Below are positions 1,241 to 62,933 of a stretch of 64,000 bases of DNA, one piece after another; position 1 is the first letter of the stretch; each line of letters starts with the position of its first letter. This DNA is from Candidatus Hecatella orcuttiae (lineage in GTDB: Archaea; Thermoproteota; Bathyarchaeia; Hecatellales; Hecatellaceae), in NCBI GenBank assembly GCA_002011035.2, contig MTLY02000003.1:613194-677193 (forward strand). The letters run 5' to 3'. Both the position numbers and the translations under genes were made by a program. The notes below the pieces were generated by a model. It was not told the origin of the DNA. It did not search any database and was given only the letters and a program-made list of their open reading frames with translations.

Positions 1241-3139
1241 ATGAATTGGCTCGGCATTCTTTGCGTGGTTCTGCTGGTAGGCGGGTTAGCTTCCACCGCC
1301 CCCTCTCCCTCAGCCTCCGATCTGAAATACTATGCCACCGGCACCATATCCCTGGATAAAGAAGTTTACAGTCCCGAGGACGGAGCAATCTTAACCGTCA
1401 CAGTCGTGGACGCTGACAGAAACCTTGACTCAGGCGCCGTCGACGGCTTCACAGGCACCGAAGCCCCAGGGGTTATCATCCAAGTTACTAGGGACGACGT
1501 CCCCCTCGCCGCCTACGACCCGCCTGTAGCCATTACCATGGCTGAAACCGGGAAAAACACCAACACTTTCCAAGGGAGACATACTCTCTCCTCGGAGGTG
1601 GAGGATGGAGACGTCATCGTTGTGATGTACTTGGACTCGGAGGATGTTTCCGGAGACCCTCGAACCATAACCGCCTACGCCTCGGTGAGAGCCCACACCG
1701 GGGAGCTGGTTTTGGATAAAGCCGAATACCGGATGGGTGAAAGTGTGAAGGTAACGGTCACAGACATCGACTTGGACCTAGACCCGCAGGTCAAAGACAC
1801 CATCGCTGCGGGGACCGTGGGAGCTGAAGGCGTGGTGGATGTTCGGACATCTACAGACCGCACCGGCATGACCATCAGCCTCACCGAGACCGCTGTGGAC
1901 TCCGGGGTTTTTGAAGGAAGCTTCACGCTGGGAACGTTCACCGCCGGTTCCACCATCAAAGCGTCCAAGCATGACACCATAACCGTGAGGTATAACGACG
2001 CCCATGATGCTTCAGGCAGGTCGGTGGACATCATCGTTAACGCCCAAGTCTTCGCCTCCACAGGCGCCATTCAGCTTGACAAAGACCGCTATTCCGTCAA
2101 CGCCCAAGTCACGGTTACGATAACCGACCCCGATGAGAACGAGAATGTCGATGCTGTGGACTGGATACCCAACACCGCCCTAAACATCAGGACCACCAGC
2201 ATAAGCTGGCCTCTCAACCCAACCAACGACATCGACGAAACCGGGGTGGACACAGGCGTTTTCGAATACGTCTTCACCCTTAACCAACCTGTGGGAGGCG
2301 CCATCCTGACGGCAAGGGACGGAGACAGCTTGGTTGTCACCTACATCGACCCGGTTGATGCTGAAGGTCGGCAGGATGTGGCCGTTACGGCGGTAGCGGA
2401 GATAGGCCACACCACCGGGACAGTGACCTTTGACAAGTCCTCCTACGAGTTCACCGACGTGGCGAAGATCACGGTGGAAGACCCTGACATGAACACAAAC
2501 GCCGGGCTCAGGGAATCCTTCGAAATCGCCGTGTTCTCTGACACAGATCTGGCTGGAATAGCTTTAACCGTCACAGAAACCGGGGTTAACACAGGCGTTT
2601 TCGAGGGGGCTTTCACTTTCACCACGAGAGCGTCTGAAAGCGGCCGGCTGAGTGTTACAGAAGGCGACATCATCACCGCCAAGTATGTGGATGAGACCCC
2701 CAAACCTGAGGATGTGGCGGGATATCAACCTGAAACCTATCCTATTCCACCCATTGTCATAAAGGCCACGGCAAGTCTGGGCGAACCAAGGCCAGCTCTC
2801 CCCATCCTGACTTCCTCTCCTGAGCTGCAAGACGCCCAAGGCAACCCCCTTGTAAAGGGGGCGGTGGGGGTTCAAGTTCTCTTGGTGACGGAGATTTCCA
2901 ACCTAGCCTCCACCACCCAGTCGATGCTTTACATCGTTCAAATTAAGGATTCGGTTGGCGCTGTGGTGTACCTAAGCTTCATCAGCGGCAATGTGCCGGG
3001 GAAAGGAAGCTTAACCCTTGGAATTGCTTGGACTCCGGAGGAGGCGGGAAGCTACACCGTGGAAGTCTTCGCTTGGAAAAGTTGGAGCGACCCTACTCCC
3101 TTGGCGGAAACCAAAAGCGTTGAAATCACCGTGGAATAG
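1241..3139 (+). CDS. Secreted S-layer-like surface protein with four tandem beta-sandwich repeats
   Basis: The 632-residue product starts with a signal peptide (hydrophobic residues 3-18, likely cleaved near the Ala-Ser-Thr-Ala-Pro stretch). About four repeats of roughly 120 residues follow, beginning near residues 33, 153, 273 and 392. Each opens with TGxxxxDKxxY followed by VTVxDxDxN and later carries an ETGxxTGVFEG-type signature. The last ~110 residues form a different domain resembling CARDB-like modules (GSYTVEVFAW). There is no C-terminal membrane anchor. The repeat pattern resembles archaeal S-layer and cell-surface proteins; conserved Asp/Asn residues suggest calcium binding, which is inference. 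The gene is monocistronic and ends at a hairpin with a T-run. Confidence 0.75.
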   Translation: MNWLGILCVVLLVGGLASTAPSPSASDLKYYATGTISLDKEVYSPEDGAILTVTVVDADRNLDSGAVDGFTGTEAPGVIIQVTRDDVPLAAYDPPVAITMAETGKNTNTFQGRHTLSSEVEDGDVIVVMYLDSEDVSGDPRTITAYASVRAHTGELVLDKAEYRMGESVKVTVTDIDLDLDPQVKDTIAAGTVGAEGVVDVRTSTDRTGMTISLTETAVDSGVFEGSFTLGTFTAGSTIKASKHDTITVRYNDAHDASGRSVDIIVNAQVFASTGAIQLDKDRYSVNAQVTVTITDPDENENVDAVDWIPNTALNIRTTSISWPLNPTNDIDETGVDTGVFEYVFTLNQPVGGAILTARDGDSLVVTYIDPVDAEGRQDVAVTAVAEIGHTTGTVTFDKSSYEFTDVAKITVEDPDMNTNAGLRESFEIAVFSDTDLAGIALTVTETGVNTGVFEGAFTFTTRASESGRLSVTEGDIITAKYVDETPKPEDVAGYQPETYPIPPIVIKATASLGEPRPALPILTSSPELQDAQGNPLVKGAVGVQVLLVTEISNLASTTQSMLYIVQIKDSVGAVVYLSFISGNVPGKGSLTLGIAWTPEEAGSYTVEVFAWKSWSDPTPLAETKSVEITVE

Positions 3140-3241: not shown

Positions 3242-4813
3242 ATGAGCCGCGGATATAAGATAGTTTTGACCTCGGGGAGAACTCTCATGAGCGAATACCA
3301 TGGAAACATCTTCCTAGGCTTCGGAGCGTGTATGTCAAAGGGACTAATCCCCGACGAAGTCTACTTCACCTACCTTTGCCCGCCTGTGGAGTCCAATGAA
3401 GACGGCTCAGCCAAATACGCCCAGCTGGGAACCCGGAAAATAGAGGCAGCTCTCTACGATTACGGTTTTAAACCCGAGGAAGTCATCGTGGCTCATCCTG
3501 ACCACTTGGAGAAAGCCATAGGGCCTGAAACCAGGGTAGTAGGCCTCACGGAGCATGACCCCCTAGGCTACGGGCCTCCCACCTCCACCTTCACCCAAAT
3601 CCTAGGCGGAGAAGCCTACAACGTCCACAAGTTTAAGGAGATAGTCAATCACCCTCTCATCCAACAGCACCGGCCCAAGATAATCCTAGGCGGAGGAGGC
3701 GCATGGCAGCTTCTAGACGAAAAACTCCGCAAAGCCTATGGAATCGACTGCGTCGTGGTAGGAGAAGGAGAAAAAGTAGCAGGACCCCTTTTCGAAATGG
3801 CTGTCAAAGGCGAAGCTCTTCCCCCCGTCGTCCGAGGGGATGTGGCTTCGGTTGAGGAAATTCCCCTCATCAGCGGCCCCACCATCTGCGGCGTGGTGGA
3901 GGTTGCTCGAGGCTGTGGAAGAGGCTGCGACTTCTGCGTCCCCGACATGCTCAGATACCGGATTTTCCCCTTGGAGTACATTCTCAAAGAGGTGGAGGTC
4001 AACGTCAAGGCGGGAAGAAAGCCCATCCTCCACGCTGAGGATGTCCTCCGCTACGGAGCTAAACACCTAGAGGTTAACGAGGAAGCTGTCATTCAGCTTT
4101 TCAGCCGGGTGAGACAGCATCCGGGAGTCGGCGGCGTGGGCATCAGCCACTTCTGCCTCTCCTCAGCGGCCAGTGCTCCGGGGGTCATCGAGAAGGTGGC
4201 TGAAATCCTTCGGCTGGGGGAGGCGGACGGTCAGCTTTGGCTCAGCGGGCAGACTGGAATTGAAACAGGAAGCCCTGAGCTGGCTAAGAAGCATATGCGA
4301 GGTAAGGCTAAGCCCTTCAAGGCGGAGGAGTGGCCGGAGGTGGTGGTCAAAGCCTTCGAAGTGCTCTCCGATAACAACTGGGTTCCCTGCGCAACCCTGC
4401 TCATCGGGCTGCCGGGCTCCACGGAGAAGGACTCGGAGCTTACCCTGAAGCTGGTGGAGAGGCTGAGGGACTACAAAAGCATCATCGTCCCTATGTTCAC
4501 TGTGTACAACGACACCACCCGCGGGTACTTCACCTACGACCAGATGACCAGAGTCGACGGGGAGCTTTTCCTAGCCTGCTGGGAGCACGACGCCCGTTGG
4601 GCGAACATGCTGACGGAGGAATACCTCCGCACCATCGACCCGGATCTGGCGGGGGGTGTTAAATCCGTGGTCTCCTACACGGTTTCAGCCATAAACAACC
4701 TCATTCGTAGATGCCGAGATGAGTATGACTGCAACATCGTCAAGATGGTTCAGGACTTGAAACCTAAGGGCGGGGAGGAACCCCCGCTTCCTCAAATAGA
4801 TTTATGGATTTAG
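3242..4813 (+). CDS. B12-binding-type radical SAM protein
   Basis: The 523-residue protein has an N-terminal cobalamin-binding-like Rossmann region (about residues 60-200, including IILGGGGAWQLL and VVGEGE). The radical SAM core follows, with its CxxxCxxC cluster motif CGRGCDFC near residue 225. A later ETGSPELAKKHMRGK stretch is typical of this MiaB/B12-type superfamily. Such proteins are methyltransferases or other modifying enzymes on unknown substrates. An in-frame TTG at 3197 would add 15 residues, but the TATA box at about 3170-3180 favours the ATG at 3242. It stands alone, so context gives no substrate. Confidence 0.75.
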   Translation: MSRGYKIVLTSGRTLMSEYHGNIFLGFGACMSKGLIPDEVYFTYLCPPVESNEDGSAKYAQLGTRKIEAALYDYGFKPEEVIVAHPDHLEKAIGPETRVVGLTEHDPLGYGPPTSTFTQILGGEAYNVHKFKEIVNHPLIQQHRPKIILGGGGAWQLLDEKLRKAYGIDCVVVGEGEKVAGPLFEMAVKGEALPPVVRGDVASVEEIPLISGPTICGVVEVARGCGRGCDFCVPDMLRYRIFPLEYILKEVEVNVKAGRKPILHAEDVLRYGAKHLEVNEEAVIQLFSRVRQHPGVGGVGISHFCLSSAASAPGVIEKVAEILRLGEADGQLWLSGQTGIETGSPELAKKHMRGKAKPFKAEEWPEVVVKAFEVLSDNNWVPCATLLIGLPGSTEKDSELTLKLVERLRDYKSIIVPMFTVYNDTTRGYFTYDQMTRVDGELFLACWEHDARWANMLTEEYLRTIDPDLAGGVKSVVSYTVSAINNLIRRCRDEYDCNIVKMVQDLKPKGGEEPPLPQIDLWI

Positions 4814-5382: not shown

Positions 5383-7167
5383 TTGAACGGTGTGGGAAAA
5401 ATCATCCGAATCTCAGGACCTGTAGTCATCGCCAAGGACATGCACGGCGCTCAGATGTATGAGCTGGTAAAGGTGGGGGAGGAGAAACTTTTCGGCGAGA
5501 CCATCGGCATCGAAAGCGACAAGGCTACCATCCAAGTCTACGAGGAGACCAGCGGCATGAGACCCGGGGAAACGGTGGAAAGAACAGGTAAGCCCCTGTC
5601 GGTGGAGCTGGGACCCGGGATTGTGGGCCAGATCTACGACGGGATTCAGCGTCCCCTAACAAGCATCCAAGAGCTTGTAGGGCCCTTCTTCCAGAGAGGA
5701 GTCACCATACCCGCCATCGACAGGAAGAAAAAATGGGAATTCACCCCCGCAGATGTCAAGGTTGGAGACAGAGTGGCGGAGGGCGACGTCCTCGGAACAG
5801 TGCCTGAAACCCCCCTAGTAACCCATAAGGTCATGGTTCCTCCGGGCCTCCGTGGCCGGGTGAAAAGCCTTGCCAAGGAAGGCGCCTACACGGTGGAGGA
5901 GGACATCGCAACCTTGGAGACGGAGGAAGGCCTCGTGGGCCTTCAGATGGCCCAGTTTTGGCCTGTCCGGAGGGCTCGGCCCTATAAGACTAAGCTTCCT
6001 TCGACGACGCCTTTGCTCACAGGGCAGAGGATCATAGATACCTTTTTCCCCATGGCCAAGGGTGGTCAGGGGTCGATTCCCGGAGGCTTCGGCACGGGGA
6101 AGACGGTGATGCTCCACCAGCTGGCCCAGTGGGCTGACTCTAACATCATCGTCTACGTGGGCTGCGGGGAGAGGGGAAACGAGATGGCTGAGGTGTTGGA
6201 GAGATTTCCCAAGCTGGAAGACCCCCGCACAGGAAAGCCTCTCATGACGAGGACGATTCTCATCGCCAACACCTCCAACATGCCCATAGCCGCCCGAGAA
6301 GCCAGCATCTACACGGGGATCACCATCGGAGAATATTTCAGGGACATGGGCTACGATGTAGCCCTCATGGCTGACTCCACCTCCCGGTGGGCAGAGGCTT
6401 TAAGGGAAATCTCAGGGCGCTTGGAGGAAATGCCGGGTGAAGAAGGCTATCCCGCCTATTTGGCCTCAAGGCTTTCAGAATTTTATGAAAGAGCTGGAAG
6501 AGTCCAAGTGTTAGGCTCCACTCCTAGGATCGGCTCCATCAGCGTGGTGGGTGCGGTTTCGCCCCCCGGCGCCGACTTCTCCGAGCCTGTGACTCAGAAC
6601 ACCCTGAGGATCATCAAAGTCTTCTGGGGTTTGGACAAAGCTTTGGCGGAGCGGAGGCACTTTCCAGCCATCAACTGGCTTACCAGCTACTCCCTCTACT
6701 ACGACAGCCTAGAAGAATGGTATTCCAAAAAATTAGGCCTCGACTGGTCTTCTCTGAGGGGAGAAGCTCTCAGCCTCCTCCAGCAAGAAGAGGAGCTTCA
6801 GGAAATCGTCCGCTTGGTGGGCCCTGACGCTCTGTCGGAAAGTCAGCGTGTGATCTTGGAGGGAGCTAAGATGATCAGGGAGGACTTTCTCATGCAGAGT
6901 GCCTACCACCCCATTGACAGTTACTGCTCCATTGAAAAATGCTACTACATGTTGAAGGTGATCCTTAAGTTTTATGAGAGGATGAAAGCCGCCGCGGAGC
7001 GGGGCGTTCTCATCAAGGAGATACTGGCTCTCCCCGTGGTGGAAGAGATAGCTCGGCTGAAACTGGTTCCAGTGGATCAGGCGGAGAAGGTCTGCAAGGA
7101 GACGGAGGCCAAAATGGTGGAGCAGTTTGAAAATCTCTACGCTTCAGGTGGGAGGGGGACAGCCTGA
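5383..7167 (+). CDS. atpA: A-type ATP synthase/ATPase catalytic subunit A
   Basis: The 594-residue protein has the full family length, with the P-loop GGFGTGKT near residues 233-240 and conserved [16 protein letters not shown] and [18 protein letters not shown] segments. It is the ATP-hydrolysing or -synthesising subunit of the membrane-attached A1 headpiece. Translation starts at TTG (5383), preceded by a weak GAGAGGCG motif. It overlaps atpB by one base (TGATG). The usual archaeal neighbours for subunits E, C and F upstream and D downstream are absent here, so only the A and B subunits are encoded at this site. Confidence 0.96.
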
Positions 7168-8576
7168 TGAGCAAAGCTCTTCTCACCGGAAAAGAATACG
7201 CAACCTTGACGGAGATCAGCGGCCCTCTCCTCTTCATCGAAAGAACCAGCGGCATAGCCTTCGGTGAAGTGGTCAAAGTCAGAACCCCGGACGGAGAGGA
7301 GCGGTCCGGGCAAGTTTTGGAAGTAGGAGAAGACATGGCAGTGGTTCAGGTTTTCGAAGGAACCTCCGGGTTGGATGTCTCCAAAACCACGGTTAGGTTT
7401 ACAGGGGAAACTCTCCGCTTCCCCGTCTCCGTTGACATCTTAGGCCGGATTTTCGACGGAAGCGGGAAGCCTGTGGATGGGGGTCCGGAAATAATCCCCG
7501 AAGACGAGCTGGACATTCACGGAGCTGCCATAAACCCCTACTCTAGGGCGTTTCCTTCCGAGTTTATTCAGACAGGGGTCTCCTCCATCGACGGCATGAA
7601 CACTCTTGTCCGAGGGCAGAAGCTGCCTCTGTTCTCAGGGTCAGGGCTTCCCCACAACTTGGTCGCCGCTCAGATAGCCCGGCAGGCTAAGGTTTTGGGG
7701 AAAGAGGAAGAGTTCGCCGTGGTTTTCGCCGCCATGGGCATCACCTCCGACGAGGCTAGGTTTTTCAAGGAGGACTTTGAAAAGCGGGGAGCCATCGACA
7801 AGGTGGTCATGTTCTTCAACCTAGCCGACGACCCGGCTATCGAGCGGCTGATCACGCCTAGGCTGGCTCTGACAGCCTCCGAGTATCTGGCCTTCCAGAA
7901 CGACATGCACATCTTGGTCATCCTCACCGACATGACCAACTACGCGGAGGCTTTGAGGGAGATCTCCGCAGCCCGGGAGGAAGTGCCGGGGAGAAGAGGC
8001 TACCCTGGCTACATGTACACGGACTTGGCTACTATCTACGAAAGGGCGGGAAGGATCCACGGCAAGAAAGGGACCATAACCCAAATGCCCATTCTCACCA
8101 TGCCCCACGACGACATAACCCACCCCGTGCCGGACCTGACAGGCTACATCACCGAGGGCCAAATATACTTGGAAAGAGCCCTCTACATGAAGGGCATCTA
8201 CCCGCCCATCAACGTTCTCCCCTCGCTGTCCCGGCTGATGAACGAGGGCATAGGGCGGGGAAAAACCCGGGAAGACCACCGGCAGGTGGCCGATCAGCTT
8301 TACTACGCCTACGCGGAAGGCCGTAGCCTCAGGGAGTTGGTGGCGGTGATAGGGGAGGAGGCGCTGACGGAAAGGGACCGACGCTACCTCCAGTTCGCCG
8401 ACCGCTACGAGCGGGAGTTCGTCAACCAAGGTGTCTACGAGAATAGGGATATCGAGAAGACCTTGGACATAGGCTGGGATCTGCTGGCCGCCTTGCCTGA
8501 GGGAGAGCTCAAACGTATCGACCCTCAGAACATCAAGAAATACCATCCCAAGTATCGCGGAAAAGTTGAAGCTTAG
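7167..8576 (+). CDS. atpB: A-type ATP synthase/ATPase regulatory subunit B
   Basis: This 469-residue protein is homologous to A subunits but lacks a functional P-loop (SGSGLPHN near residue 157). It keeps family signatures such as [18 protein letters not shown] and [12 protein letters not shown]. It alternates with the A subunit in the A3B3 hexamer. Its ATG overlaps the atpA stop by one base. It is followed by a T-run and a GINS gene rather than atpD. Confidence 0.96.
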
Positions 8577-8597
8577 CCTCCTCAAGCTTCAACCTGT

Positions 8598-8613
8598 TTT
8601 CCACAATTTTTTT
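8598..8613 (+). terminator. T-run after atpB
   Basis: A TTTT stretch followed closely by seven consecutive T residues (8607-8613), about 30 bases after the atpB stop, fits an archaeal oligo-T terminator. No strong hairpin precedes it. Confidence 0.4.
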
Positions 8614-8635
8614 ACGACAAGACTGATATTCTTCT

Positions 8636-8661
8636 GCCTCCCTTTATGGTAAGGGGGAGGC
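8636..8661 (+). promoter_or_regulatory. Hairpin that can hide the GINS ribosome binding site
   Basis: GCCTCCCTTTA and TAAGGGGGAGGC form a near-perfect stem with a 3-base loop. The 3' arm carries the GGGGGAGG Shine-Dalgarno motif used by the TTG at 8671. If transcribed, the fold would sequester the SD, suggesting translational control of the replication genes; the role is inferred. Confidence 0.4.
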
Positions 8662-8670
8662 TCTCTCAGC

Positions 8671-9213
8671 TTGGATCTGTTTGAGGCTTCAGATGAGAAG
8701 TTCGGCCAGAAACCTGTGAGAATGGTCGCCCTTAAACCTGTTCCCAGAATATCCGTGGCTCAGATGGAGCTGGGCCCCTGGGAGGCTGGGGAGAGGTTTG
8801 AGATTTCCCGCTGGGTGGCGGAGGAGCTGGTTGAAAGCGGGGTTGCCCAGCTTGAGTCGGAGGCGGAAAAACTGAGCCTCTTAGACCTCCAAAAAGCTCA
8901 GATAGTGGAAACCATGCAAGCCTCCCGGCGGCTTTCAACCCTGCCCGAAAACTTTTATCCCAAGCTTCGGAGATTTTTGAAAACGTTGAAGGAAGCAGGC
9001 TCCGGTAACCCGGAGAAGAGGGCGGAGTTCGAGCAGGCTCTACGGTTGGGGATGGACATCCTCACCAGCAGGCTGAATAAGATCCTCCTCCTAGCTTCAG
9101 CTCCAGAACAGTCTGAAGCCGCTGTGAGAAACCTCACCTGGGAGGAGAGGTTCCTCTACGAGAGGCTTTACCGCACGGTTGAGGAGTGGAAAGCCTCCGC
9201 GTTGAAAGTTTAA
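8671..9213 (+). CDS. GINS replication complex subunit (Gins23-like domain order)
   Basis: The 180-residue protein begins with a small beta-rich B domain (LGPWEAGERFEISRWVAEEL, residues 34-53). The helical A domain follows, including the LPENFYPKLRRFL signature near residues 90-102. The B-then-A order is that of the Gins23 class. GINS links MCM to the replisome as part of the archaeal CMG-like helicase. The TTG start follows a strong SD at about 8653-8660. The mcm gene begins 12 bases downstream, a classic archaeal gins-mcm pairing. Confidence 0.85.
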   Translation: MDLFEASDEKFGQKPVRMVALKPVPRISVAQMELGPWEAGERFEISRWVAEELVESGVAQLESEAEKLSLLDLQKAQIVETMQASRRLSTLPENFYPKLRRFLKTLKEAGSGNPEKRAEFEQALRLGMDILTSRLNKILLLASAPEQSEAAVRNLTWEERFLYERLYRTVEEWKASALKV

Positions 9214-9225
9214 GGTCTGGTCCCT

Positions 9226-11259
9226 ATGGCTAGAGTGCTAGTAGACCCTTTGGAAAAGTTTCAGGAACTCTTCAAGAAGCCTGAATACCGGAAAATGATG
9301 AAGAAAATGGCGGTGGAGGAAAAACGCTCCCTCTACCTAGACTTCGTAGATCTCTCCCTCTTCAGCAAAGAACTGGCCTCCATGCTCGTTGAAAAGCCTG
9401 AAGAATGCCTTAAACAGGCTTCCTTAGCCCTCCAAGCTCAGATGAGGATTGAGGATGCACAATATTCTGAAACAGCGGGAAAGCTCTATGTGAGGGTTAA
9501 AGGCCTACCCCACAAGGTTCCCCTCCGGTCCATAGGCGCCAAGCACATTGAAAAAATGGCGTCCTTCGACGGCATCGTCGTCAGGTCAACGCCCATCAAG
9601 CCCCTGCTCATGGAGGCTATCTTCAAATGTAAATGCGGGGAGGAGATGACCATCCCCCAGCATGGGCCCTTCCTCCGGCAGCCCTCACGGTGCATGAACC
9701 CTTCATGCCGGAGAGAAAGCGGCTTTGAGCTTATCCCTGAAAAGTCCAAGTTCATGGACTTCCAAGAGTTGAGGGTTCAGGAGAGGCCTGAGGAGCTCCC
9801 CCCAGGCCAGCTTCCCCGCCATCTAGACGTTGTTTTGGAAGACGACGTGGTTGACTGCGCGAGGCCGGGAGACAGGGTTGTGGTAACAGGCATCGTCAGA
9901 GCCCGGCCTGAGGTTGTTCCCGGTAAGGGTCGGCTGAGGGCTTTCAACATCTTCGTGGACGCCAATTCCGTGGAAACCCTCGGGAAGGAGCTGGAAACCT
10001 TAGACCTCTCCTTGGAGGATGAGAAGAAAATTCTGGAACTCTCCAAGGATGCTTTCATCCACAAGAAGATCGTCGACTCCATCGCCCCCTCCATCTTCGG
10101 CTACGAAGACATCAAAGAGGCCATTATGTACCTCCTTTTCGGAGGCGTCCCCAAAGTGACACCTGAGGGGGTCACAATCCGGGGGGACGTACACATCCTC
10201 CTAGTGGGTGATCCGGGCACAGCCAAGTCCCAAATGCTCCGCTACGTGAGCAGGGTGTCCCCCCGAGGCCTTTACACCAGCGGAAGAGGAACTACAGCCG
10301 CAGGGTTAACGGCGGCGGTCCTCAGGGAAAAGGCAGGAGGAATGGTTCTCGAAGCAGGAGCCTTGGTTCTGGCTGACAAGGGCGTGGCGGCGGTGGACGA
10401 GATCGACAAGATGAGGGACGAGGATCGGGTGGCCATGCATGAAATGATGGAGCAGCAGACCGTCAGCGTGGCCAAGGGAGGCATCGTAGCCACCCTCAAC
10501 GCTAGGACTTCCATCATGGCCGCGGCCAACCCTAAGCTAGGAAGGTATGAGGACCGGCTTTCGGTGGCTGAAAACATCAACATACCCTTGGTCATTCTTT
10601 CAAGGTTCGACCTCATCTTCATCCAGCGAGACCTGCCGGACAAGGACTTGGACGACAGGCTGGCCGACCACATCCTCCGGTCTCACAGGGCTGGAGGCGC
10701 GGAGGCTTCCCCCATACCCCCCGAGCTTCTCAGGAAATACATAACCTACGCCAGGTCGAGGGTTACCCCCAAGCTGAGCCAGGAGGCCGCTGAGCATCTT
10801 AAGCAGTTTTACTTGAAGATGAGGGAACGCTCTGGAGGCGCGGAGGGCTCCCCCATAGCCATAACCCCCCGGCAGCTGGAGGCTTTGGTCAGAATTTCCG
10901 AGGCCAGAGCCAGAGCCGCGCTGAGGGAGGAGGTTACCGCTGTGGATGCTGAGGCGGCTATTCAGATAATGAAAAAATCCCTTCAGGCTGTGGGTGCCTT
11001 GGGTGCTGAGGCGGGGGACATTGACATCATCATGACCGGGCGGCCTGCCACGGTTCGGGAAGGCATCGCCAGCGTGCTGATGCTGGTGGGGGAGATGGAG
11101 AAGAAGTTTGAAGAAGTGGAGTTGGAGGAACTCTACCGGAGGCTGGAAGAGGAATACAACATAGAACGGAGGGCGGCTGAAGAGTACGTGAGAAAGATGA
11201 TCAGCCAAGGCCTCCTCTATTCTCCCCGAACCGGCTACGTCAAAAAAGCTCGAGGCTGA
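9226..11259 (+). CDS. mcm: Replicative helicase MCM
   Basis: The 677-residue protein has an N-terminal OB/zinc region (CKCGEEM...CMNPSC, about residues 135-165) and an AAA+ core. The core carries Walker A GDPGTAKSQ near residue 328, Walker B DEIDKM near 391 and the arginine finger LSRFDLIF near 460. A C-terminal winged helix covers about residues 600-677. It forms the hexameric replication-fork helicase. No intein is present. It is co-transcribed with the upstream GINS gene and lies 26 bases before hel308. Confidence 0.97.
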   Translation: MARVLVDPLEKFQELFKKPEYRKMMKKMAVEEKRSLYLDFVDLSLFSKELASMLVEKPEECLKQASLALQAQMRIEDAQYSETAGKLYVRVKGLPHKVPLRSIGAKHIEKMASFDGIVVRSTPIKPLLMEAIFKCKCGEEMTIPQHGPFLRQPSRCMNPSCRRESGFELIPEKSKFMDFQELRVQERPEELPPGQLPRHLDVVLEDDVVDCARPGDRVVVTGIVRARPEVVPGKGRLRAFNIFVDANSVETLGKELETLDLSLEDEKKILELSKDAFIHKKIVDSIAPSIFGYEDIKEAIMYLLFGGVPKVTPEGVTIRGDVHILLVGDPGTAKSQMLRYVSRVSPRGLYTSGRGTTAAGLTAAVLREKAGGMVLEAGALVLADKGVAAVDEIDKMRDEDRVAMHEMMEQQTVSVAKGGIVATLNARTSIMAAANPKLGRYEDRLSVAENINIPLVILSRFDLIFIQRDLPDKDLDDRLADHILRSHRAGGAEASPIPPELLRKYITYARSRVTPKLSQEAAEHLKQFYLKMRERSGGAEGSPIAITPRQLEALVRISEARARAALREEVTAVDAEAAIQIMKKSLQAVGALGAEAGDIDIIMTGRPATVREGIASVLMLVGEMEKKFEEVELEELYRRLEEEYNIERRAAEEYVRKMISQGLLYSPRTGYVKKARG

Positions 11260-58134: not shown

Positions 58135-59256
58135 TTAGCTCTTCAAAAATTCCACGACGTTCTCCTTTATTTCCCTAGAACTTAGGGGAACGTTTGGCAG
58201 CTCCACGTTGCCCGGCTTGGCCACGGCGTGGATGAAGTTAGGCCCCTCGCCCAACTCCTCTAAGACCCGGTGAAGCTGGTCTTTGGTGGCTACCTTATAG
58301 GTGTTTTTTATGCCGAACCCCCGGGCGACCAGCTCCAAGTCCGCGTAGCCGTTGGCCGCCGTGGGCTGGTTGCCTGTGGAGCCGTAGACTCCATTGTCGA
58401 AAACCAGTAGGGTGAGGTTTCGGGGGGCGGTCAGCGCGGTGGTGGCTAGGGTGCTGGGGTTCATCAGTATGCTGCCGTCTCCCTCCACCACGACGACTTC
58501 CTTCTGGGTGTTGAGGGCTATGCCTAACCCTACAGCCGAAGCCATCCCCATGCTGCCCAGCATGTAGAAGTTGGATTTCTGATGCTTCAGATGGTAGAGT
58601 TCCTTGCAAGGATAGCCCAAATTGCACACGACGGCTTTTCCCTCCAGATAGGGGACAGCTGCCTCCATGAGCTGAAACCTGGTGAAATGCGGGCGGATTC
58701 TCAGGACTTTGTGCTGTTGCTCTTCCAGTTCTTTTCTTTCCACGACGATGTTTTCCATTCCGCGCATGTTTTCACCCCAGAGTTTCGGGTTCAGCAAAAA
58801 GGCGTGGACGGTGTTTTCCTCGAAAACCTTTCCCAGAATGTCCTCCACCGCGGACAGCTCCCTAGGGTCCGCCAGCTCGGTGCGGCCTATCTCCAAGGCG
58901 TCCAGAAGTTTAGGGAGGTATTTTCCCATGGGAATCTGAGCCGCTATCCTTTCGTCGTAGACCCCCCTCCAGCTGACGAGGATGGGTAAGGGAAGCTGGT
59001 AAAACTTTGTCAGAGAACACAGAGCGTTGATGGTGTTTCCCACCCCGGAGCTTTGAATCAGCATCCCCGCCCTAGCGCCGGCTAGGGAGGCCCCTGCGCA
59101 GATGCCGACCCCCTCCTCCTCCCTGCTCAGGGGAACATGCCTGAAATGGCGGGGTATCTCGGCCAGAAGCCTCTGCACCCTTTCGCAGGGGAGGGAAACC
59201 ATGAGGTTGACTCCTTTCCTCTTGAAAGAATCGACGATGACGCGTTCAGGCTTCAT
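58135..59256 (-). CDS. comDE: Sulfopyruvate decarboxylase, fused alpha-beta (ComDE)
   Basis: The 373-residue TPP enzyme has a ComD-like half (about 1-165: RVIVDSFKRKGVNLMVSLPC, REEEGVGICAGASLAGAR) and a ComE-like half. The latter holds the TPP motif VVEGDGSILMNP with FDNGVYGSTGNQ. It decarboxylates sulfopyruvate to sulfoacetaldehyde in coenzyme M synthesis. Fused ComDE next to cysteate synthase is known from Methanosarcina. Phosphonopyruvate decarboxylase is the main alternative, but the neighbouring gene argues against it. Confidence 0.85.
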   Translation of the reverse strand: MKPERVIVDSFKRKGVNLMVSLPCERVQRLLAEIPRHFRHVPLSREEEGVGICAGASLAGARAGMLIQSSGVGNTINALCSLTKFYQLPLPILVSWRGVYDERIAAQIPMGKYLPKLLDALEIGRTELADPRELSAVEDILGKVFEENTVHAFLLNPKLWGENMRGMENIVVERKELEEQQHKVLRIRPHFTRFQLMEAAVPYLEGKAVVCNLGYPCKELYHLKHQKSNFYMLGSMGMASAVGLGIALNTQKEVVVVEGDGSILMNPSTLATTALTAPRNLTLLVFDNGVYGSTGNQPTAANGYADLELVARGFGIKNTYKVATKDQLHRVLEELGEGPNFIHAVAKPGNVELPNVPLSSREIKENVVEFLKS

Positions 59257-61543: not shown

Positions 61544-61675
61544 AAGTCTTTAAGGACAACTATTCCTATGGGAATCATTAAGCAATTTAACCTTTCAGAA
61601 GGAGATAAACTTAATTGGGAAATTAGAGCTGAGGATGGGGAGCTTATAATAGTTGTAAAGCCATTAAGACGGTGA
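61544..61675 (+). pseudogene. Remnant of an AbrB/MazE-type antitoxin
   Basis: The frame continuing directly from the previous gene's stop codon encodes KSLRTTIPMGIIKQFNLSEG and then WEIRAEDGELIIVV before a stop at 61673-61675. That is the core of a swapped-hairpin AbrB antitoxin without a proper N-terminal start; the only ATG (61568) falls mid-domain. A second fragment at 61681-61719 (MDEFVYTAKIKE then stop) resembles the start of another AbrB protein. No toxin gene is seen. Confidence 0.55.
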
Positions 61676-61780: not shown

Positions 61781-61996
61781 ATGCCGTTGATTCAAATGTA
61801 TTTTGGAAAGGGCGCTCTCACAGATGAGCAGAAGGCCGACTTGTCCAGAAAAATCACCGACTTGATCGTCAAGGAGGCAAAACAACCACAACATTACACG
61901 TGGGTCATAATCCATGAGGTCCCCGTGGAGAACTGGATGGTCGATCGTCTCACCTTACCAGAGCTTAAGGCCAAGCTCATGGCCGAAAAGGAGTAA
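61781..61996 (+). CDS. 4-oxalocrotonate tautomerase-family protein
   Basis: The 71-residue protein begins Met-Pro-Leu-Ile, so after Met removal it has the catalytic Pro1 of the tautomerase family. YFGKGALTDEQKADLSRKITD also fits. GTG 61772 would put residues before the proline and abolish that feature, so ATG 61781, with its perfect SD, is chosen. It lies 38 bases before the C_GCAxxG_C_C gene. Codon usage is more A/T-rich than in the main block, suggesting acquisition. Confidence 0.85.
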   Translation: MPLIQMYFGKGALTDEQKADLSRKITDLIVKEAKQPQHYTWVIIHEVPVENWMVDRLTLPELKAKLMAEKE

Positions 61997-62034: not shown

Positions 62035-62550
62035 ATGTCTGAAGAAAAACAACCTGATGTGAAGGAATTGCAAGAAAAAGTGATGCGATATTTCTGCGAT
62101 AGACCCAGCAACTTCCCTACCGGGCGACCGTATAACTGCTGTGAAAGTGTTCTCTTAACTCTGCAAGAATATCTCGGTACAGATTCTGAGCTGATTCCGA
62201 AGATCGGTACGGCGATAGGTGCAGGGGTTAGCTTGAACGGGCTTCTTTGCGGTTCTATCTCAGGTGTGGCAATAGCTATTGGCATCAAATACGGGAGAAG
62301 TACTCCAGAGGAGAACCCGGAACCGGTATGGGCAATGATGAATGAATATGTGGCTGCCTTCAAAAAGAAGTTTGGCTATGTAAATTGCAGACAACTCACC
62401 GGTCTAAACTTAAAGACACCAGAGGGATTGAAAGAATACTTTACAAGGGTTCATGACTACGAATGCACTGAGAGATTAAAATTTGCAGTTGAGAAGGCTG
62501 TAGAGATCCTTAAAGGCAAGAGTAAAACATCGTCAGGGAACGTCGCCTAA
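62035..62550 (+). CDS. C_GCAxxG_C_C family redox-type protein
   Basis: The 171-residue protein has NCCESVLLTLQEYLG, then GTAIGAGVSLNGLLCGSISG and later NCRQLTGL and DYECTERL. That is the spaced-cysteine pattern of the C_GCAxxG_C_C family, thought to be redox or metal-binding proteins in anaerobes. ATG 62035 follows AAGGTGAG; a GTG at 62026 is an alternative. Its TAA stop (62548-62550) lies inside the GCCTAAC box of the attC-like structure downstream. Confidence 0.8.
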   Translation: MSEEKQPDVKELQEKVMRYFCDRPSNFPTGRPYNCCESVLLTLQEYLGTDSELIPKIGTAIGAGVSLNGLLCGSISGVAIAIGIKYGRSTPEENPEPVWAMMNEYVAAFKKKFGYVNCRQLTGLNLKTPEGLKEYFTRVHDYECTERLKFAVEKAVEILKGKSKTSSGNVA

Positions 62551-62634
62551 CAGAGCGTATCCGACTTCGGTGCTTCGCGCTTTCACCTAAATCCAGCAAA
62601 GCTGGACTTCAGATACGCTCGGAACGTTAAGTGA
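62543..62634 (+). other. attC-like structure (candidate integron cassette recombination site)
   Basis: GCCTAAC (62545-62551) fits the R'' consensus RYYYAAC, and GTTAAGT (62626-62632) fits the R' consensus GTTRRRY. The extended outer arms 62543-62551 and 62626-62634 pair at 8 of 9 positions. Inside, GAGCGTATC (62553-62561) and GATACGCTC (62612-62620) form a perfect 9-bp stem, separated from the outer arms by unequal spacers (1 and 5 bases). An inner hairpin TCCAGC/GCTGGA sits at 62592-62606. Orientation is right for the preceding gene. No integrase gene is in the window. Confidence 0.5.
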
Positions 62635-62746: not shown

Positions 62747-62788
62747 TCCCCTGATAGTAACCATGGGCCTGCCAGAACTGGGCCCGTA

Positions 62789-62810
62789 GGCTGCCAGCCG
62801 CAGCCGGGAG
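62789..62810 (+). other. tRNA-Lys intron 1 (22 bases, after position 9)
   Basis: A full bulge-helix-bulge can be drawn. The central helix is CCCG (62783-62786) with CGGG (62805-62808), the 5' bulge TA|G, the 3' bulge AG|G, the inner helix GCTG/CAGC and the outer helix GGG/CTC. Cutting the bulges joins U8-A9 directly to the D stem. Confidence 0.85.
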
Positions 62811-62840
62811 GCTCAGCTAGGATAGAGCACCGGGCTTTTA

Positions 62841-62860
62841 CGGGCCACCCGCCCAAAGCC
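62841..62860 (+). other. tRNA-Lys intron 2 (20 bases, canonical position 37/38)
   Basis: The central helix CTTT (62835-62838) pairs with AAAG (62855-62858). The 5' bulge is TA|C, the 3' bulge is CC|A, the inner helix is GGGC/GCCC and the outer helix is the anticodon stem. This is a textbook archaeal tRNA intron. Confidence 0.93.
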
Positions 62861-62866
62861 ACCCGG

Positions 62867-62900
62867 AAGAAGAAAGGCCAAGCCCGCCTCTTCTGGGGAA
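62867..62900 (+). other. tRNA-Lys intron 3 (34 bases, anticodon stem/variable loop junction)
   Basis: The inner helix AGAAGA (62868-62873) pairs with TCTTCT, with bulges GG|A and AA|G. The central helix CCC/GGG has only three pairs plus an A-G mismatch, so the motif is relaxed. Removal gives a standard 5-base variable loop GGGTC. The exact cut could shift by a base or two. Confidence 0.65.
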
Positions 62901-62933
62901 GGGTCTCGGGTTCGATTCCCGACGGGCCCGCCA

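Follow-up and report, generated by a model that had tools for sequence, protein, structure and literature searches.

Canonical bacterial integrons (IntI1 or VchIntIA, with class 1 attC sites or VCRs) consist of a recombinase, an attI site and an array of one-gene cassettes, and their attC sites combine AAC...GTT boxes, a G|TT crossover, an asymmetric central spacer and a folded bottom strand, all of which recur in the system described here. Integron recombination is taken to have two joint hallmarks, the IntI-specific insert and the extrahelical base of attC. The extrahelical G base has been called absolutely conserved (PMC2727003). In archaeal metagenome-assembled genomes (MAGs), attC sites and cassette arrays were reported by Ghaly et al. 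2022, mostly with no detected IntI (CALIN); an IntI was accepted there only with the profile of the IntI-specific domain, which gave six, singleton attCs were excluded, and 539 archaeal attCs were counted (PMC9668308). The arrays found here differ from those in having a recognisable attI and recombinases without that domain, and such recombinases would escape the survey because an insert-specific profile was required. Within the literature covered, which was partial and may leave out integron work on Riemerella, no description of integron recombinases without the insert was found.

The DNA analysed here is a stretch of 64,000 nucleotides from Candidatus Hecatella orcuttiae (contig MTLY02000003.1), referred to as the window. 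The original prediction, made from sequence alone, was of an archaeal integron gene cassette, with a C_GCAxxG_C_C gene ending inside GCCTAAC, a GTTAAGT box downstream, and unequal spacers and a perfect 9-bp stem between them. All of these elements are present (Table 1). The boxes conform to RYYYAAC and GTTRRRY around an imperfect palindrome, GTTAAGT beginning 74 nt past the end of R'', and the stem reaches 11 bp, its nine perfect pairs being followed by a C/A mismatch and then a G-C pair. The C/A mismatch of the top strand corresponds to G.T on the bottom strand, and accordingly the fold is more stable there (-18.3 kcal/mol, z -2.5) than on the top strand (-14.1, z -1.0). This preferential folding and the asymmetric unpaired central spacer (1 versus 5 nt) are those of attC, in the orientation claimed for the gene. 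The 11 contiguous pairs of the window site contain no extrahelical base, and the same is true of most relatives. The crossover is placed at G|TT because of the rule linking R' to the next R'' in arrays, given below.

Table 1. Features of the attC site and its surroundings in the window (positions counted from the first letter of the window).
Feature	Position	Strand	Basis or remark
4-oxalocrotonate tautomerase family gene (PF01361)	61781..61996	+	upstream partner of the C_GCAxxG gene
C_GCAxxG_C_C family redox protein gene (PF09719)	62035..62550	+	attC follows directly
attC site	62545..62632	+	bottom strand is the folded strand; R1 61.6 bits, R2 63.5 bits, fold, covariation
R'' box GCCTAAC	62545..62551	+	contains the TAA stop codon (62548-62550) of the C_GCAxxG gene
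Unpaired central spacer, short side	A62552	+	1 nt
L'' stem arm, GAGCGTATCCG	62553..62563	+	partner 62610-62620; family-wide compensatory changes
Terminal structure	62564..62609	+	includes inner hairpin 62592-62606; homologous hairpin in the site family (helix 3)
Inner hairpin TCCAGC-AAA-GCTGGA	62592-62597/62601-62606	+	
L' stem arm, CAGATACGCTC	62610..62620	+	partner 62553-62563
Unpaired central spacer, long side, GGAAC	62621..62625	+	5 nt
R' box GTTAAGT	62626..62632	+	inferred crossover G|TT
Probable tRNA-Lys gene, two introns	62780..62933	+	sequence; Rfam tRNA 21.3 bits, sub-threshold; homologues

A DNA search of the 256 genomes of the window's class returned one similar hairpin, 74% identical, in a genome (G229) some contigs of which might be foreign; relative to the window its stem carries compensatory changes and its neighbouring genes are different. 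The contig holds four such hairpins (locus L039; a 1955-2032, b 2926-3010, c 3922-4009 and d 4430-4509), and the spacers of b and c (1 and 5 nt) are those of the window site. A covariance model, R1, was built from these four sites only. It scores the window site, on which it was not trained, at E 2.4e-18, a rough value because calibration was short, as the E-values of the covariance models are in general; the score is comparable to those of other array members, and a chance origin of the hairpin is excluded since an independent model gives it 61.6 bits. A low covariance-model score, or the same hairpin inherited vertically by close relatives of the gene, had been named as evidence that would speak against the site. 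The score lies far above chance, and the relatives of the C_GCAxxG gene do not carry the hairpin.

Sites matching R1 occur in 17 of the 256 genomes of the class, three of them from the window's own family. A second model, R2, made from 21 sites of the class with the window left out, also reaches, at E <= 1e-6, a second archaeal phylum, to which G258 (Thermoplasmatales archaeon HyVt-387) belongs, with sites in 46 of 389 genomes, and the Chloroflexota, the phylum of G259 (Dehalococcoides JdFR-56), with sites in 6 of 400; the genomes are species representatives, many of them fragmented MAGs, and arrays break assemblies. The structure is conserved by covariation: in alignment A5, both partners change in 13 of 25 pairs and pairing is kept in 92.8% of cells, against 22-45% with the partners slid, and among the 21 sites without the window the values are 15 of 23 pairs and 86.4%, again versus 22-45%. 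The sites often form arrays with one gene to each site, and are also often present as a single copy per genome, some with extra hairpins adjoining, and no conserved extrahelical base is found in the stem of the family. No match to R2 was obtained in a class 1 integron or in two phages with an IntI or IntI-like integrase. The window hairpin belongs to a widespread family of integron attC sites.

Within the window the site stands alone. An R1 scan gave no second match up to E 10, and a strict motif scan of the + strand, requiring R/GTT motifs and a stem of 8 or more perfect pairs, returned this site and one weaker site. The whole genome contains no further copy of the hairpin and no second site at the thresholds used, so that at least two attCs within 4 kb, as in a CALIN, are found neither in the window nor in the genome. 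Rfam has no family for the hairpin, its scan of site and window giving a sub-threshold tRNA only, and a blastn search of plasmids with the hairpin gave no match.

In the arrays of related genomes there is one ORF per site, on the same strand, with its stop typically ~10-90 bp before R''. An example is locus L177, where a site ending at 5712 is followed by an ORF (5755-6213), a site (6226-6316), an ORF (6345-7073), a site (7085-7176), an ORF (7227-9362) and a further site at 9379. Integron theory places the cut of a cassette at G|TT, and predicts that the R'' of a site should pair with the R' of the preceding site. Among 29 good consecutive site pairs, the four variable R'' bases match the previous R' perfectly in 18 and their own R' in 5 (permutation p ~1e-5), and the complementarity of cassette ends spans ~16 nt. 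The rule is seen in the related arrays and not in the window, which has one site only. Sites of the family are cassette boundaries in these arrays.

Tyrosine recombinases at the heads of arrays are of two types. Type A reads with the array (G586, G324, G814 and G410, with a remnant in G229), and type B is divergent from it (G258, G332, G608, G619 and G293, where G332 and G608, together with G491 and G544, are closely related and not independent). A recombinase adjoins an array in a minority of the site-bearing genomes, most of which are fragmented MAGs. From KGxKxR to HxLRHSFAT the array recombinases have 55-62 residues, versus 100 in the true IntI of G667 and in canonical integrons, and this gap in length is the missing IntI-specific insert; the best solved relative, VchIntI (2a3v), aligns via residues 10-181 and 245-319 only. 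Their TIGR02249 scores are 175-225 bits, below the cut-off of 265, and the XerA model NF040815 scores similarly, type B and most of type A also scoring high for it. Archaeal XerA proteins (5hxy, 4a8e) are similar in length and core, but the array recombinases form clades apart from the Xer of their hosts and stand at the head of cassette arrays with attI. In a tree, type A, type B and IntI fall into one cluster each, separate from the chromosomal Xer sequences of those genomes; type A adjoins IntI with moderate support (87/86) and is itself supported at 62/87, in an unrooted tree that includes several fragments. The array recombinases are therefore not IntI in the accepted sense. In the VchIntIA complex the IntI insert contacts the extrahelical base, and for this reason the joint absence of insert and base is suggestive; we infer that the two may be causally linked. 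Contigs of the class with TIGR02249 matches carried mostly ordinary Xer-type recombinases and were set aside.

Two variants of type A were noted. Locus L169 (G814:C4) contains two tandem copies, one shortened to 162 codons, with an attI-like sequence after each. At L165, L168 and L173 the N-terminus has an extra segment (..FSYNPDYI..IKTIKGYRWHPEEKCWSVP..) before the SAM-like domain, with no Pfam match.

The crossover of attI was predicted by taking the R'' of the first attC in reverse. In 9 of the 14 loci tested, an exact copy of this 7-mer lies no more than 170 bp from the recombinase; with mismatched combinations the same held for 10 of 176. The 7-mer is preceded by palindromic arms, as in GATATCCGAAATTACTTCGGATATAAACAA|GTTGCCC (G586), and type A loci often have a second palindrome ~40 bp further upstream; the long arms are unlike attI of canonical integrons. 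In G332 the recombinase and the site are on a contig of 1.44 Mb, and mis-binning is therefore no issue in this genome. From the cassette-end rule, the recombinases at array starts and the attI matches together, the related arrays are integron cassettes.

Stages of decay are seen in genomes of the window's class. G029 retains a type A frame of 213 codons and an attI, GGATATCCGAACAAGTTCGGATATGAATAA|GTTATGC, which the R'' of its first attC, GCATAAC, matches exactly; in G010 and G008, fragments of type B lie directly upstream of the attC, and in G229 the type A remnant is beside its attC. The window genome has neither an attI nor a recombinase of these types. Its four PF00589 genes include none of type A or type B, and the best TIGR02249 score, 17.8 bits, is noise, leaving no IntI with the IntI-specific domain. 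The search of the genome for an IntI-type recombinase, proposed with the original prediction, thus came back empty, and the statement that neither an integrase nor a second attC is visible extends to the whole genome at the thresholds used.

The tautomerase and C_GCAxxG genes lie in a stretch where GC is 0.42-0.46 (61.25-62.75 kb), versus 0.54-0.63 upstream, and AGGAGGTGAT precedes the tautomerase gene; both the A+T shift and this sequence had been pointed out before and are real. Relatives of the C_GCAxxG gene, 63-82% identical, are found in archaea and bacteria, including Acetothermia and Chloroflexota. The original prediction had proposed looking for either gene beside attC sites in other genomes. 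The pair was found without attC at three loci (L030, L032 and L035), whose hosts are HyVt-387 (82 and 81% identical), Bathyarchaeota B26-1 and a Thermoprotei MAG; HyVt-387 has 21 sites of the family elsewhere in its genome. The predicted 5' cassette boundary, GTTAGGCGACGTTCCC, was not found upstream of the pair in the window, and the sole upstream copy of the 7-mer G|TTAGGC, the complement of the site's own R'', is at 58237 in the interior of another gene, a chance occurrence. The pair has spread horizontally and is A+T shifted, but not demonstrably as the window cassette. That it was imported as a cassette is plausible but unproven, because the pair occurs elsewhere without attC, and it is not put forward as a typical cassette. 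What stands of the cassette reading is an attC in an archaeon, while the arrival of the gene pair as a cassette does not follow.

Other sequences near the site were also recorded. A short ORF at 61568-61675, MGIIKQFNLSEGDKLNWEIRAEDGELIIVVKPLRR, resembles a fragment of an AbrB/SpoVT-type antitoxin and lies upstream of the tautomerase gene, within the A+T-rich region. A C_GCAxxG gene 52-57% identical, with several stops, is present in another genome of the class (L007, 1501-1938; G009:C1). The probable tRNA-Lys gene beyond the site has the anticodon TTT and one of its introns in the D-arm region; it was missed by ARAGORN and scores below the Rfam gathering value. Its homologue in G003, the best tRNA match in the window's family, is without the first intron, has different genes upstream and is located at a contig end; it gave no readable empty site when one was sought through the tRNA gene. 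The tRNA gene is host sequence, outside any cassette.

Relatives were also met on plasmids. In Riemerella anatipestifer, a host from the Bacteroidota, an attC-like hairpin 3' of aph(3')-IVb has been described, the resistance gene having been acquired without homology, and no recombinase was named (PMC13148043). In contrast to a hairpin alone, a plasmid of Chryseobacterium sp. SNU WT5 (NZ_CP041688.1; L224, 4971-8393) has a type A-like recombinase, 42% identical to that of L168, followed by an attI, CATATAAACAA|GTTGGGA, and by a row of hairpin sites; the R'' boxes TCCCAAC, GTATAAC, AGGTAAC and TCCCAAC each complement the preceding GTT box, so that the cassette-end rule is also seen on a Bacteroidota plasmid. 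On pHH1107 (FJ012881.1; L225, 5043-7064), tet(X3) comes immediately after TnpF, which is 51% identical to a type A recombinase, and between the two are ATATACGCCATTTGGCGTATA and then CACTT|GTTATGT, resembling attI of the array loci; no clear attC was found behind tet(X3).

The reading that we favour, with a probability of about 0.85, is that the window hairpin is a lone attC of a predominantly archaeal integron lineage. Where the system is intact, a tyrosine recombinase that lacks the IntI-specific insert would recognise a double-stranded attI adjoining its gene, in which dif-like palindromic arms precede G|TT, and would also recognise the folded bottom strand of attC. It would insert or excise circular one-gene cassettes at G|TT, each beginning with the TT... 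of one site and ending with the R''...G of the following one, so that the two ends of a cassette would be complementary. The window genome would have lost the integrase and all other sites, one attC being left with its R'' overlapping the stop codon of the C_GCAxxG gene. Recombination of single-stranded attC, catalysis on attI and movement of cassettes as circles are predicted here from sequence patterns, and the window site is best read as a relic left by cassette capture or by the decay of an array, rather than as still active.

An ordinary cassette acquired from bacteria, whose canonical attC was mobilised by a classical IntI with the IntI-specific domain, would explain the RYYYAAC and GTTRRRY boxes and the bottom-strand fold, and it gains from the ability of IntI1 to use archaeal attCs (PMC9668308) and from the true IntI in one Chloroflexota genome with family sites. 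This is nonetheless unlikely, given that the array recombinases have no insert, that among the 67 site-bearing genomes searched an IntI above cut-off was found only in that genome (G667), where the family model found no site on the IntI contig (C225), and that the sites have no conserved extrahelical base and R2 recognises no class 1 attC. The integron idea of the original prediction is accordingly kept as to the type of site and revised as to the associated recombinases and the extrahelical base. Still less probable is the remnant of a mobile element based on Xer and dif, with dif-like targets of the chromosomal XerA and no cassette logic. Type B does score near archaeal XerA (NF040815) and the arms of attI are dif-like, but genomes with type B have a separate Xer that branches elsewhere, the attC hairpins are not dif sites, and the cassette ends are complementary.

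A palindromic repeat element (MITE or REP-like) inserting behind genes would account for sites that are short, structured, dispersed and often single in a genome, and for the extra hairpins adjoining some of them. For such an element the pairing of R'' with the previous R' and the prediction of attI would be meaningless, the arrays have one gene per unit in a single orientation, and the window genome has one copy; we regard this origin as highly improbable. The least credible of the alternatives is a hairpin of chance or vertical descent, for instance a transcription terminator. Its position directly past a gene stop, a top strand that folds no better than shuffles and the lack of an Rfam family would fit, but the score with the independent model, the compensatory changes and the absence of the hairpin from relatives of the gene do not.

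A lone attC of a mainly archaeal integron lineage is thus preferred for the window. The attC arrays beside recombinases without the insert appear to represent an integron lineage that would escape standard searches, because these recombinases do not have the part that is thought to define integron integrases. It is somewhat more probable than not, in our judgement, that a second integron lineage, with insert-less recombinases and attC sites without an extrahelical base, extends across archaeal phyla, Chloroflexota and Bacteroidota plasmids; it would explain many of the archaeal arrays described as integrase-less, would mean that integrons are far commoner among archaea than has been reported, and may show an origin of integrons from Xer-type recombinases. 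If true, a lineage that lacks insert and extrahelical base and keeps attI, attC, G|TT and arrays would separate what an integron needs from what IntI has added, and would offer a path from Xer-like recombinases to integrons that can be tested. Searches that require the IntI domain would then overlook many archaeal integrons and perhaps others on Bacteroidota plasmids; a relative of the recombinase adjoins tet(X3).
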